Source of the DNA: Dechloromonas hankyongensis
GTDB lineage: Bacteria; Pseudomonadota; Gammaproteobacteria; Burkholderiales; Rhodocyclaceae
Direction: 5' to 3'
DNA length: 64,000 bases
Assembly (NCBI RefSeq): GCF_022012295.1
Contig: NZ_JAKLTN010000002.1
Coordinates: forward strand, 1,302,001 to 1,366,000
The translations under genes were made by a program, and so were the position numbers. Of this stretch, positions 54,691 through 58,857 are shown one piece after another. Position 1 is the first letter of the stretch. Every line of letters begins with the position of its first letter. The notes under the pieces were generated by a model. It saw nothing but the letters and a program-made list of their open reading frames with translations. It had not been told where the DNA came from and did no database searches.

Positions 54691-54715
54691 TCAAAAGCCC
54701 GGCGACGGCCGGGCT
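54691..54715 (-). terminator. Hairpin between ppnP and yajQ
   Basis: On the minus strand AGCCCGGC and GCCGGGCT form a perfect 8-bp stem with a 4-nt loop followed by TTTTG. It should limit read-through into yajQ. Confidence 0.65.
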
Positions 54716-54733: not shown

Positions 54734-55045
54734 TTAGCCGAAGTGGCAAACGTAGTGGTAAGGCTCGTCGCAGGCGATTTCGAAGCTGGAATTGCCCGGC
54801 ACGTTGAAGGACTGGCCATCGCCGTAGGTCTTCCACTCGCTTTCGCCTTTCAGCTTGACGCGGCAGGAACCGCCGACACCTTCCATGATTTCCGGCGCAC
54901 CGGTATTGAAGGTCAGGCTGGACGGCAGGATCACGCCGACCGTCTTCTTGGTGCCATCGGCCAGCACCACGGTGTGGCTGACGCACTTGCCATCGAAATA
55001 AACATTGGCCTTCTTGACCACCGAAACGTTGTCGTATTGCGACAT
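54734..55045 (-). CDS. ppnP: Pyrimidine/purine nucleoside phosphorylase (DUF1255, YaiE)
   Basis: 103 residues, a small cupin-like protein starting [20 protein letters not shown], with [20 protein letters not shown] and [12 protein letters not shown] at the C-terminus. It is full length for PpnP, which phosphorolyses uridine, adenosine, inosine, guanosine and other nucleosides. The gene abuts the DUF2788 gene (stop at 55046, start at 55045). Confidence 0.93.
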
Positions 55046-55267
55046 TTAAATACCCCAGAGTTTTTGAATGATTCCCTTGGCGATGAAACCGACCATGCCG
55101 AAAGCCAGCACGAAGAAGAGCACGAAGGTACCCGTCTTGCCGGCCTTGGACTTGTAGGCGATCTCGCCGATGATGAACAGCATGAAGAGAATGAAGGCAC
55201 CCACGCCCCAGGTCGAGAAGAAATCCGCGATCTGTTCTTCGTTGAGTCCGAAAACGGTGCCTTCCAT
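55046..55267 (-). CDS. DUF2788 membrane protein
   Basis: 73 residues with two hydrophobic segments (about 20-38 and 46-66) and the start MEGTVFGLNEEQIADFFSTW. It matches the DUF2788 family of small inner-membrane proteins. Function is unknown. It starts 3 nt after the argG stop and is immediately followed by ppnP, so all three could be on one transcript. Confidence 0.85.
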   Translation of the reverse strand: MEGTVFGLNEEQIADFFSTWGVGAFILFMLFIIGEIAYKSKAGKTGTFVLFFVLAFGMVGFIAKGIIQKLWGI

Positions 55268-55270
55268 CGC

Positions 55271-56722
55271 TTAGCCCTTCTTCTTGGCGGCCGGCTTCTT
55301 GGCGACAGCCTTGGCCGGTGCAGCAGCTTTCTTGGCCACCGGAGCGGCCACGGCCTTCTTGACCACGGCCTTGGCAGCTACCGGCTTGGCGACGGCTTTC
55401 GGTGCAGCCTTGGCGACCTTGGCTGCCGGCTTGGCTGCCGGTTTAGCGGCAGCGGCCTTCTTCGGCGCCGCCTTCTTGGCAGCGGCCGGCTTACCGGTCT
55501 TCTTCGCCGTCAGGTTGGCCGCAATGCGCATGCGCAGGGCGTTCAGCTTGATGAAGCCGCCAGCATCACGCTGGTCGTAGGCACCGGCGTCGTCTTCGAA
55601 GGTAGCGATGGTCGAATCGAATAGCGAATCGGTCGCCGAATCGCGGCCGACGACGATGACGTTGCCCTTGTACAGCTTGAGGCGAACGGTACCGTTGACC
55701 GTCTGCTGGGTGTGGTCGATCAAGGTCTGCAGCGCCTTGCGCTCCGGGCTCCACCAGTAGCCGTTATAAATCAGGCTGGCGTAGCGCGGCATCAGGTCGT
55801 CCTTGAGGTGGGCGACTTCGCGGTCCAAGGTAATCGATTCGATGGCACGGTGGGCGCGCAGCAGGATGGTGCCGCCCGGGGTTTCGTAGCAGCCGCGCGA
55901 CTTCATGCCGACGTAGCGGTTCTCGACCAGGTCGAGACGGCCGATGCCGTGCTTGCCGCCCAACTCGTTGAGCAGGGCCAGCACTTCGTGGGCCTTCAGC
56001 TTCTTGCCATTGACGGCGACCACGTCACCCTTGGCGAACTCCAGATCCAGGTATTCAGCCTTGTTCGGAGCCTTTTCCGGCGACACCGTCCACCGCCACA
56101 TCGACTCTTCGGCTTCGGCCGCCGGGTCTTCCAGGTGACGGCCTTCGTAGGAAATGTGCAGCAGGTTGGCGTCCATCGAATACGGCGAGCCGCCCTTCTT
56201 ATGCTTCATGTCGATTTCGATACCGTGCTTCTCGGCATAGGCCATCAACTTTTCGCGCGACATCAGATCCCACTCGCGCCACGGGGCGATGACCTTGATG
56301 CCTGGCTTCAGCGCGTAGGCACCCAGCTCGAAACGTACCTGGTCGTTACCCTTGCCGGTGGCGCCGTGGCAGATGGCGTCGGCGCCGGTTTCGTTGACGA
56401 TCTCGACCAGGCGCTTGGCGATCAGCGGACGGGCGATGGAGGTACCGAGCAGGTACTCACCCTCGTAAACGGTGTTGGCGCGGAACATCGGGAAGACGAA
56501 GTCGCGGACGAACTCCTCGCGCACGTCGTCGATATAGATGTTCTTCGGCTTGATGCCGGCCTTCAGTGCCTTGGCGCGTGCAGGTTCGAGTTCTTCACCC
56601 TGGCCGAGATCGGCCGTGAAGGTGACCACTTCGCACTTGTACACGTCCTGCAGCCACTTGAGGATGACTGAGGTATCCAGACCGCCCGAATAGGCCAGCA
56701 CAACCTTCTTGATATCGCTCAT
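55271..56722 (-). CDS. argG: Argininosuccinate synthase with histone-H1-like C-terminal tail
   Basis: 483 residues. The catalytic part (1 to about 407) is complete: N-terminal PP-loop [16 protein letters not shown], citrulline/aspartate site [17 protein letters not shown], and [16 protein letters not shown]. It joins citrulline and aspartate using ATP in arginine synthesis. The normal end is near [14 protein letters not shown]. Here about 76 further residues follow (coding 55274-55501), composed almost only of Lys, Ala, Pro and Val, in repeats like AAKPAAK and AVAKK. This resembles histone H1/AlgP-type DNA-binding tails and is not part of normal ArgG. The frame is continuous, with no sign of frameshift. 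Confidence 0.95.
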
Positions 56723-56761: not shown

Positions 56762-57682
56762 TCAGCCCTGAATACGGCCCAACAGCAAATACTCCATCAA
56801 CGCCTTCTGGACGTGCAGGCGGTTCTCCGCCTCATCCCAGACCACCGATTGTGGTCCGTCGATCACTTCGGCCGTCACTTCCTCACCGCGATGCGCCGGC
56901 AGGCAGTGCATGAACACGGCTTGCGGGTCGGCCACCCGCATCATGTCGCCATCGACGCACCAGTCGGCGAAGGCCTTGATCCGCTCCTCGTTCTCGGCTT
57001 CGAAGCCCATCGAGGTCCACACGTCGGTGGTGACCAGATCGGCGCCGCGGCAAGCGTCCATCGGATCGGCGAAAATCTTGAAGCGGGCCGGATCGATTTT
57101 GCCGACCAGTTCCGGCTGGATCTCGTAGCCCGGCGGGGTCGATACATGAACCTTGAAATCGAGCACTTCGGCCGCCTGCAGCCAGGTGTTGCACATGTTG
57201 TTGGCGTCGCCGACCCAGGCCACGGTCTTGCCCTGGATGTCGCCGCGATGCTCGATGTAGGTATAGATATCGGCCAGTATCTGGCACGGGTGATATTCGT
57301 TGGTCAGCCCGTTGATCACCGGCACGCGCGAATTGGCCGCGAAACGCTCGATAATCTCTTGCTCGAAGGTGCGGATCATCACAATGTCGCTCATCCGGGA
57401 GATGACTTGCGCCGCATCCTCGACCGGCTCGCCACGCCCGAGTTGGGAATCGCGAGTATTCAGGTAGATCGCCGAGCCGCCCAGCTGCTGCATCCCGGCC
57501 TCGAAGGACAGACGCGTCCGCGTGCTGGCCTTTTCGAAAATCATCACCAACGTACGGTCGGAAAGCGGCCAGTACTTCTGGTAGGACTTGAACTGGTTCT
57601 TGATCCACGCCGTGCGTTCGAACACGTAGTCGAACTCGTCGCGGGAGAAATCCTTGAATTGCAGAAAATGTTTGATTGCCAT
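56762..57682 (-). CDS. argF: Ornithine carbamoyltransferase
   Basis: 306 residues. The carbamoyl-phosphate site is EKASTRTRLSFEAGM (STRTR motif), the ornithine site is near FMHCLPAHRGEEVT (HCLP motif), and WVGDANNMCNTWLQ and DVWTSMGFE are conserved. It makes citrulline from ornithine. The gene starts 2 nt after the argD stop and is followed after 39 nt by argG, so argD-argF-argG form one operon. Confidence 0.97.
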   Translation of the reverse strand: MAIKHFLQFKDFSRDEFDYVFERTAWIKNQFKSYQKYWPLSDRTLVMIFEKASTRTRLSFEAGMQQLGGSAIYLNTRDSQLGRGEPVEDAAQVISRMSDIVMIRTFEQEIIERFAANSRVPVINGLTNEYHPCQILADIYTYIEHRGDIQGKTVAWVGDANNMCNTWLQAAEVLDFKVHVSTPPGYEIQPELVGKIDPARFKIFADPMDACRGADLVTTDVWTSMGFEAENEERIKAFADWCVDGDMMRVADPQAVFMHCLPAHRGEEVTAEVIDGPQSVVWDEAENRLHVQKALMEYLLLGRIQG

Positions 57683-57684
57683 GA

Positions 57685-58857
57685 TTAAGCAGCCAGAAAT
57701 GCCTTGATCAGCGGCGCGGTGCGCACCACCAGCTCGCGGGCGTCGCTTTCGCTGAAGATCAGCGGCGGCAGGAAACGGACGACGCTATCCGCCGTCACGT
57801 TGATCAGCAGGCCGGCCTCTAGGCCCCGGCCGACCAGGGCGCCGCACGGACGATCGAGTTCGATGCCGATCATCAGGCCATGGCCGCGAATATCGACTAC
57901 CCCCTTGGTGCCAGCAAGCGCTTCGCCGAACAGCTGGCGAATCTGGCTACCGATATGCGCAGCGTTGGCCAGCAGGCCGTCCTGCTCGATGACCTCGATG
58001 GTCGTCAGCGCAGCGACGGAGACCAGCGGATTGCCGCCGAAGGTCGAACCGTGGTTGCCCGGCCCGAAGAGGCCAGCCGCCTTGCCGCGCGCCAGACAGG
58101 CACCGATCGGCACGCCCGAGCCGAGGCCCTTGGCCAGAGTGGCGATATCCGGTTGTACGCCGACCTGCTGGAAGCCGAACCAGCTTCCGGTACGGCCCAT
58201 GCCGCACTGCACTTCGTCGCAGATCATCAGCCAGTCGTGGCTATCGCACAGCTCGCGAACGCCGCGATAGAAGGCCGGATCTACCAGATGAATGCCGCCC
58301 TCGCCCTGAATGACCTCGAGCATGACGGCAACGATATTCTTGTGATGTTCGGCGACGTTGCGGATCGCCTCCAGATCGCCATAAGGCACCCGGACGAAGC
58401 CGCTCACCAGCGGCTCGAAGCCGGCCTGCGCCTTGCGATTTCCGGTCGCCGACAAGGTCGCCATGGTGCGGCCATGGAAAGCCTTTTCCATGACGATGAT
58501 GGTCGGCATCTCGATGTTCTTCTTGTGGCCGAAGAAACGCGCCAACTTTATGGCCCCTTCGTTGGCTTCGGCACCCGAATTGCCGAAGAACACCTCGTCC
58601 ATGCCTGACAGGGAACACAGCTTGTCGGCCAGTTGCTCCTGCTCGCGAATGCAGTACAGGTTAGAGGTATGCAACATGCGACCGGCTTGGGCGGAAATCG
58701 CCGCCACCAGCCTGGGATGGGCGTGCCCCAACGTCGAAACGGCAATCCCGGACAGGGCATCCAGGTACTCCTTGCCTTCGGTATCGGTAATCCGGGAGCC
58801 CTGGCCGTGACTGAATGTCACCGGCAAACGGGCATAGGTATTCATGACATGCGACAT
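57685..58857 (-). CDS. argD: Acetylornithine aminotransferase
   Basis: 390 residues, class III PLP aminotransferase. Conserved parts are FGNSGAEANEGAIKLARFFG, AFHGRTMATLSATGN, MICDEVQCGMGRTGSWFGFQ and the PLP-lysine region IATLAKGLGSGVPIGA. It converts N-acetylglutamate semialdehyde to N-acetylornithine and may also act in lysine synthesis. It is the first gene of the arg operon. A GC-rich hairpin with a T-rich tail lies immediately upstream of the start. Confidence 0.95.
   Translation of the reverse strand: MSHVMNTYARLPVTFSHGQGSRITDTEGKEYLDALSGIAVSTLGHAHPRLVAAISAQAGRMLHTSNLYCIREQEQLADKLCSLSGMDEVFFGNSGAEANEGAIKLARFFGHKKNIEMPTIIVMEKAFHGRTMATLSATGNRKAQAGFEPLVSGFVRVPYGDLEAIRNVAEHHKNIVAVMLEVIQGEGGIHLVDPAFYRGVRELCDSHDWLMICDEVQCGMGRTGSWFGFQQVGVQPDIATLAKGLGSGVPIGACLARGKAAGLFGPGNHGSTFGGNPLVSVAALTTIEVIEQDGLLANAAHIGSQIRQLFGEALAGTKGVVDIRGHGLMIGIELDRPCGALVGRGLEAGLLINVTADSVVRFLPPLIFSESDARELVVRTAPLIKAFLAA

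Follow-up and report, generated by a model that had tools for sequence, protein, structure and literature searches.

A lysine-rich C-terminal tail on argininosuccinate synthase appears to mark one of two types of the enzyme at one locus in Dechloromonas

Lysine-rich arms are known on bacterial proteins linked to the nucleoid, to granules and to ribosomes. The closest described systems are AlgP and PhaF of Pseudomonas. The KPAA tail of AlgP is described as necessary for normal spacing of polyphosphate granules, and as resembling the tail of PhaF, a presumed DNA binder (PMC9239181). In the case of the H1-like proteins, Hc2 of Chlamydia is reported to vary in size by lysine-rich units (PMC2848022). 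For the Pseudomonas proteins EngA and SrmB, a GTPase and a helicase, lysine-rich ends are described as required for polyphosphate shifts or binding (PMC12077175), and in E. coli the regions with which YihI and RNase R bind polyphosphate are likewise given as lysine-rich (PMC12345225). More generally, Lys-rich low-complexity regions are reported to be enriched in DNA-binding proteins (PMC6821194), and a title cited in the same paper places lysine repeats at the C-terminus of an enzyme, Streptomyces topoisomerase I.

Here we describe a tail of this kind on a biosynthetic enzyme, which is the new aspect compared with AlgP and PhaF. The window is the whole stretch of DNA that was analysed, 64,000 nucleotides of the Dechloromonas hankyongensis contig NZ_JAKLTN010000002.1; the gene is argG, coding for argininosuccinate synthase (ArgG), and the features are collected in Table 1. 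Like AlgP and PhaF, the tail has a K/A/P composition, a C-terminal position, expected disorder and, over the tails of the genus, a tendency to a Lys at about every fourth residue. Unlike them it follows another N-terminal domain and contains more Val, and it has 76 residues with four perfect KPAA (counted by eye) compared with the 154-residue repeat region and 25 KPAA described for AlgP/PhaF (PMC9239181). With Hc2 it shares lysine-rich low complexity, but it is appended to an enzyme and scores far below the cut-off of the HC2 family. EngA and SrmB are similar in that a lysine-rich C-terminal region sits on a protein with another main function; their lysine runs, however, are denser (9 in 20, four consecutive) than in ArgG, which has 8 Lys in its last 20 residues and a longest run of 3 (by eye). 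This density falls between the published polyphosphate positives (9 in 20) and negatives (5-7) (PMC12077175). Topoisomerase I, unlike ArgG, has DNA as its own substrate. In the main text on polyphosphate targets, neither ArgG nor argininosuccinate occurs as a term (PMC12345225).

Table 1. Positions in the window of argG, its parts and the neighbouring features
Feature	Position	Strand	Evidence or remark
argG, argininosuccinate synthase, 483 aa (core + tail)	55271..56722	(-)	PF00764, PF20979, NF001770
K/A/P/V-rich C-terminal tail, residues 408-483	55274..55501	(-)	sequence; outside ArgG models; selected in relatives
last four argG codons, Lys-Lys-Lys-Gly, AAGAAGAAGGGC	55274..55285	(-)	sequence; arrangement kept in many relatives
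core residues 201-250, 150-nt window of greatest type divergence	55973..56122	(-)	69-76% DNA identity
class-III aminotransferase, probably argD	57685..58857	(-)	PF00202; argD name inferred from position
argF, ornithine carbamoyltransferase, tailless	56762..57682	(-)	PF00185, PF02729
DUF2788 small protein	55046..55267	(-)	PF10981, 72.7 bits vs 25
ppnP, pyrimidine/purine nucleoside phosphorylase	54734..55045	(-)	PF06865, 128.1 bits
terminator-like hairpin 3' of ppnP, candidate operon end	54696..54715	(-)	consensus scan

In the whole genome, argG gave a single match. The protein scored 213.7 bits with PF00764 and 267.1 bits with PF20979 (cut-off 27), as well as 632 bits with NF001770 (cut-off 334). 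Two solved enzymes, 4nzp and 1j1z, aligned to residues 2-402 (665 bits) and 6-404 (556 bits), thus over nearly the full length and with the N-terminal AYSGGLDTS stretch included. By domains and alignment the protein is a normal argininosuccinate synthase with predicted catalysis; in known structures this enzyme is a homotetramer. As the Pfam and NCBIfam matches over cut-off stop at residues 400-405, the tail lies outside the ArgG models. The sequence-only reading of this DNA had described a Lys/Ala/Pro/Val tail of about 76 residues on a 483-residue ArgG, and this holds in the open frame: 73 of the 76 residues are K, A, P or V, 22 of them Lys, with no Arg, Asp or Glu (counted by eye), and the chain ends in KKPAAKKKG. 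Its statement that ArgG usually has 400-410 residues was also close, as 77 of 80 loci code for 400-412 aa; the exceptions were 475 (L002), 434 (L056) and 589 aa (L012). Among the 274 stop-to-stop frames of at least 100 aa in the six frames of the window, argG alone had a last 60 residues with K at 18% or more and KAPVT above 60%, and all 40-residue stretches with at least 10 Lys and at least 34 KAPV were inside the argG frame. An AlphaFold model of ArgG (18-row alignment) was poor throughout, with a mean pLDDT of 48, and supports neither fold nor disorder.

The likeness to H1-like proteins and AlgP proposed by the sequence-only reading stands for composition and for lysine periodicity. Over the genus tails longer than 45 aa, a Lys-Lys spacing of 4 was strongly enriched (1.88x shuffled, z 15) and a spacing of 5 less so (1.41x), with spacings of 2 and 3 strongly depleted. 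Family membership is another matter: the tail gave 9.9 bits with HC2 (E 0.98), below the cut-off of 40, and no match over cut-off was found in the whole genome, so that membership was rejected. L277, a weak HC2 match at another genomic site, shares its DNA with open frames of a different look. In the N-terminal part of ArgG, no family besides ArgG was over cut-off, and neither an AlgP helical nor a phasin domain was seen. Capture of the tail from a histone-like gene, suggested by the same reading, finds no support in three results: the tail matches argG alone, HC2 is absent over cut-off from the genome, and at this position other lineages carry their own kinds of K/A/P tail. A search of the genome with the tail (62 candidates scored, with a bias correction that may miss low-complexity relatives) returned argG only, and recent capture from another gene of this genome was rejected on this basis.

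Comparison of ArgG lengths and tails in relatives, proposed beforehand as a check, showed that the tail recurs in the genus. Of its 76 genomes, 73 gave an argG match, with a tail in 36 and none in another 36; in the last one (G027) the contig stops short of the gene end. The tailed count takes in L168 and L169, which are split or partial matches, and the tailless count the partial L170 and L171 and the fused L166. In L168 (G046) the match is split in three within a single contig, which may reflect a broken copy or a sequencing error. Tailed members of the genus extend 27-103 aa past the conserved core motif LNALRxRI, and in a second genus (g22) tails start from 22 aa past it. Dechloromonas agitata is5 has a tailed ArgG of 475 aa and Dechloromonas sp. 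H13 (L008/L160) a tailless one. Tailless ArgG of the genus is like the tailed form in enzyme family, locus and neighbours; unlike it, the protein ends 9-11 residues past the core motif, has a mean core charge of -11 and belongs to a separate type.

Beyond the genus, the family search covered 395 genomes, with ends read for 20 genomes of other genera, and the order search 300 genomes, with ends read for the 30 best loci, which is no census of tails. In 6 of these 30 best loci the ends reach at least 20 aa, each of its own make (L247 106 aa, L265 57, L253 56, L268 38, L271 25, L266 22). K/A/P ends are also present on the database proteins P0035-P0040, P0051, P0053 and P0054. Among them P0040, P0051, P0053 and P0054 carry Lys/Ala/Pro-rich N-terminal extensions besides the C-terminal ones. 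The remaining 24 of the 30 best order-level loci (L246-L275) have ends below 20 aa. Many of these are short and strongly basic, e.g. AANRKKRK or AARLAKKRKH on near-neutral or basic cores; such ends are possibly the starting state for tail growth. Among the matches listed for the literature on ArgG or lysine-rich tails, subscription papers being outside the scope, no title on a tailed ArgG was found.

The ArgG tail is a real coded feature, kept in frame. An assembly error, which the sequence-only reading had named as one outcome that would undo it, is contradicted because 36 of the 73 genomes have an in-frame tail at the same place, and because purifying selection is seen between close relatives. 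Across 13 selected close pairs, dN/dS was 0.04-0.20 in the tail and 0.004-0.044 in the core, with a tail dS of 0.15-1.4; therefore, most amino-acid changes in the tail are removed. In all 13 pairs lysine sites were kept more often than other tail sites. With the same tail end recurring in frame in other genomes and in database proteins, and with selection acting on it, a sequencing or assembly artefact or the loss of a stop codon has a negligible probability, and assembly error and read-through were ruled out.

The main rival to a docking function holds that the tail is a weakly constrained low-complexity extension, grown by codon-level duplication at the tolerant C-terminus of a GC-rich gene, harmless as it has few hydrophobic or acidic residues, and perhaps an aid to solubility with no specific partner. 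Tail length is indeed loose: among 21 pairs with near-identical cores (printed identity of at least 0.995 over 400 residues), lengths were equal in 13 and 1-12 aa apart in 8, and at a core identity of 0.993 L104 and L091 have tails of 34 and 98 aa. Half of the matching genomes are tailless (36 of 73), tails have arisen several times at the same place, and the tail exceeded the core in dN/dS in 13 of 13 pairs. However, the low tail dN/dS itself with its best-kept lysine sites, the Lys spacing of 4, and a net charge of +8 to +29, thus at least +8, in all 34 full genus tails argue against weak constraint. We regard it as a distinct possibility, although below an even chance. Stability of tail length within species, our first reading, is not established by the comparison of close pairs. 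The related suggestion that the tail may expand and contract by repeat slippage is supported as far as lengths differ between relatives; the DNA has a single tandem pair over threshold (12 bp x 2) and is thus not a plain slippage tract.

The cores themselves fall into two groups, and on the sequence evidence the tail is the mark of one of two ArgG types that occupy the same locus. In a tree of argG core DNA with the tail removed (94 rows), 2 changes account for tail state. Tailed enzymes of the genus cluster there with those of g13, g22, g20 and g33, and the tailless members of their own genus stand apart. The neighbouring DNA behaves differently. For the upstream neighbour argF, which served as control gene (85 rows), genus membership needs 2 changes and tail state 13, at least 5 of them forced by starred branches; in the downstream 560 bases (82 rows) the numbers are 2 and 10. 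Over 60 genomes, leaving out 27 of the 87 argG genomes for want of a usable rpoB, tail state needs 9 changes on the rpoB tree (5 forced by starred branches) and 1 on the argG core; within the genus (53 genomes) it needs 7 and 1. Here rpoB is a distant marker standing in for the species tree, and all trees are of single genes built by quick methods. AU tests in argG, on groups picked after tree inspection, reject three species-tree groupings, G018+G021, G062+G007+G056 and G004+G005+G063 (p 2e-7, 1.5e-6 and 6e-71), and in rpoB, on groups picked in the same way, one tailed clade is rejected (p 5e-54). G018 and G021 are sister genomes of opposite type, tailed and tailless. The trees, like the charge counts below, leave out L166 with its fused frame and the partial L168-L171.

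False clustering of the tailed cores by convergent lysines was considered and ruled out. At third codon positions tail state needs 2 changes, or 1 within the genus, and the result of 2 holds without the discriminating codons and residues 195-261; therefore the split between types is not simply one of convergent lysines. Mean identity within and between types in the genus was 0.835 and 0.826 on the argF side, 0.879 and 0.835 in argG, and 0.819 and 0.808 downstream. With 1 change of tail state on the argG core against 9 on rpoB, the simplest account of the tree conflict is that argG has apparently been replaced in place repeatedly by homologous recombination. An old duplication with differential loss appears less likely because no genus genome has two full argG matches (73 genomes with a match). 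G046 and G047 contain several argG fragments each, G047 with 10% contamination. One database contig codes for a mosaic ArgG (P0030, 456 aa), which is nearer the tailless type as far as about residue 280-300; beyond that, its core windows are identical to those of the tailed L094. It is either a natural recombinant or a chimeric assembly.

The types differ at sites all along the gene, most densely around residues 226-250, and at many of these sites the tailed type has a lysine. In seven between-type pairs, DNA identity was 80-92% in the remaining core windows, compared with 69-76% at 55973-56122. Seven core positions (60, 63, 111, 118, 176, 217 and 220) separate 34 tailed from 33 tailless members of the genus without exception. 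Uncorrected for descent, core net charge in the genus was -3.7 (sd 0.9, n=34) in tailed and -11.0 (sd 1.3, n=33) in tailless members, and among the top-scoring members of other genera -1.0 (n=9) and -8.7 (n=11). In the neighbours of argG within the genus, DUF2788 showed no charge difference between tailed and tailless genomes (p 0.39), nor did ArgF (-13.9 vs -13.7, p 0.71, uncorrected for descent). PpnP differed slightly (-2.3 vs -2.9, p 8e-4, uncorrected for descent), and outside the genus ArgF was less acidic in the tailed group (-14.9, n=7, vs -18.0, n=10, uncorrected for descent). Part of the charge difference may therefore be general.

To see how tail and core charge go together, 230 distinct ArgG sequences were tabulated, with core charge counted from LAYSGGLD on and L012 and L166 left out, in a sample biased to relatives of two queries. 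Tails of at least 20 aa occur in 6 of 122 sequences with a core charge of -7 or below, one of these being the mosaic, and in 77 of 108 with a higher core charge. A core of -3 or above without a long tail was found in 30 of the 147 tailless sequences, many of them with a short basic tip. A tree of 229 rows requires 9 changes of tail state and 6 of core class; among 7 independent tail/no-tail pairs, at most one (0 or 1) also differs in core class, which argues that tail and core charge have not repeatedly changed together. Judged from the sequences, the association is largely inherited, with no repeated joint change, and tails seem to have changed several times, mostly on cores that were already less acidic. 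Our first idea, that cores turned less acidic with each tail gain, is unsupported by this tree.

What the tail does can be approached largely by analogy. We propose that it may be a flexible, polycationic arm through which the enzyme attaches to a polyanion, be it RNA, DNA or polyphosphate; our confidence in this reading reaches the halfway mark. The arm would be disordered and would bind polyanions non-specifically and non-covalently. As has been suggested for AlgP, PhaF and the lysine-tailed polyphosphate targets, it would hold the enzyme on polyphosphate, on the nucleoid, or on RNA or ribosomes. The core would have lost acidic surface first, letting the arm grow. Tail and less acidic core come as a package, which has apparently moved between species by in-place replacement. 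For docking speak the selection on the tail with its best-kept lysines, the Lys spacing of 4 and the net positive charge of all 34 full genus tails. Against it stand the loose tail length, with 34 vs 98 aa at 99.3% core identity, the 36 of 73 genomes that are tailless, and the lysine density between published polyphosphate positives and negatives. If docking is true, the step from citrulline to argininosuccinate, which releases pyrophosphate, would be placed on ribosomes, the nucleoid or polyphosphate granules, and a bacterial housekeeping enzyme would have been recruited to a polyanion scaffold.

As to the partner, polyphosphate is a fair guess, given that the genus includes polyphosphate accumulators, and is not favoured over nucleic acid. 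Azonexus, formerly Dechloromonas, is named among the polyphosphate-accumulating genera (PMC12455942), and ppk1 is present in the genome. The tail is not required for this physiology, because about half of the genus is without it. Quite tentatively, and with more doubt than confidence, one genus may hold two exchangeable forms of the enzyme, one soluble and acidic, the other less acidic, equipped with a histone-like arm and docked on a polyanion; they would be swapped between species as a gene-sized cassette at a fixed locus. With real docking, a single pathway step would have two biochemical versions that are exchanged at the scale of a gene. Close species that share the remainder of the locus either have or lack the arm, and this amounts to a natural experiment on its function. 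Sister genomes of opposite type, together with named records of both types, make the docking idea testable.

Instead of a polyanion, the tail could act on the enzyme or its partners, folding back on the tetramer or loosely holding ArgF or ArgH to channel intermediates. The surroundings fit this in so far as argF and argG lie next to the argD-type gene, all read in the same direction, and ArgF is acidic (charge about -14) in all groups compared. However, ArgF has the same charge in tailed and tailless genomes of the genus, and docking on the enzyme itself is weakened as the tailed core is less, not more, acidic. Action on the enzyme or its partners is thus unlikely.

On the minus strand the co-directional run consists of the argD-type aminotransferase gene, argF, argG, the DUF2788 gene and ppnP, followed by the terminator-like hairpin, a possible operon end found by consensus scan. 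The DUF2788 start codon lies 3 nt past the argG stop. At the end of argG, AAG AAG AAG GGC TAA stands at Shine-Dalgarno distance from this start, likewise in many relatives, and the KKKG codons may double as a Shine-Dalgarno-like AAGG(G) for it; this is perhaps why the very end of the tail is its most constant part. One could thus suppose that the tail codons serve translation coupling to DUF2788 at the RNA level, with the peptide as a by-product. Many tailless relatives, however, have an AAGG-like signal before the DUF2788 start without any tail, the tail dS is high while amino acids are kept, and such a constraint would account for the conserved last residues only. As an explanation of the tail it is highly improbable, and beyond the last codons it is ruled out by the tailless signals and the high dS.

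Two further frames of the locus were noted. In Dechloromonas sp. SSD3 (L012/L166, G037) the argG frame runs through the next gene into ppnP, giving 589 aa, and its counterparts in relatives are separate genes; either the genes are truly fused, or this metagenome-derived chromosome contains a small assembly error. In the window, an open frame of 293 codons at 54743-55624 (+) lies antisense to the argG tail, DUF2788 and ppnP, and is most likely a mechanical effect of codon usage.
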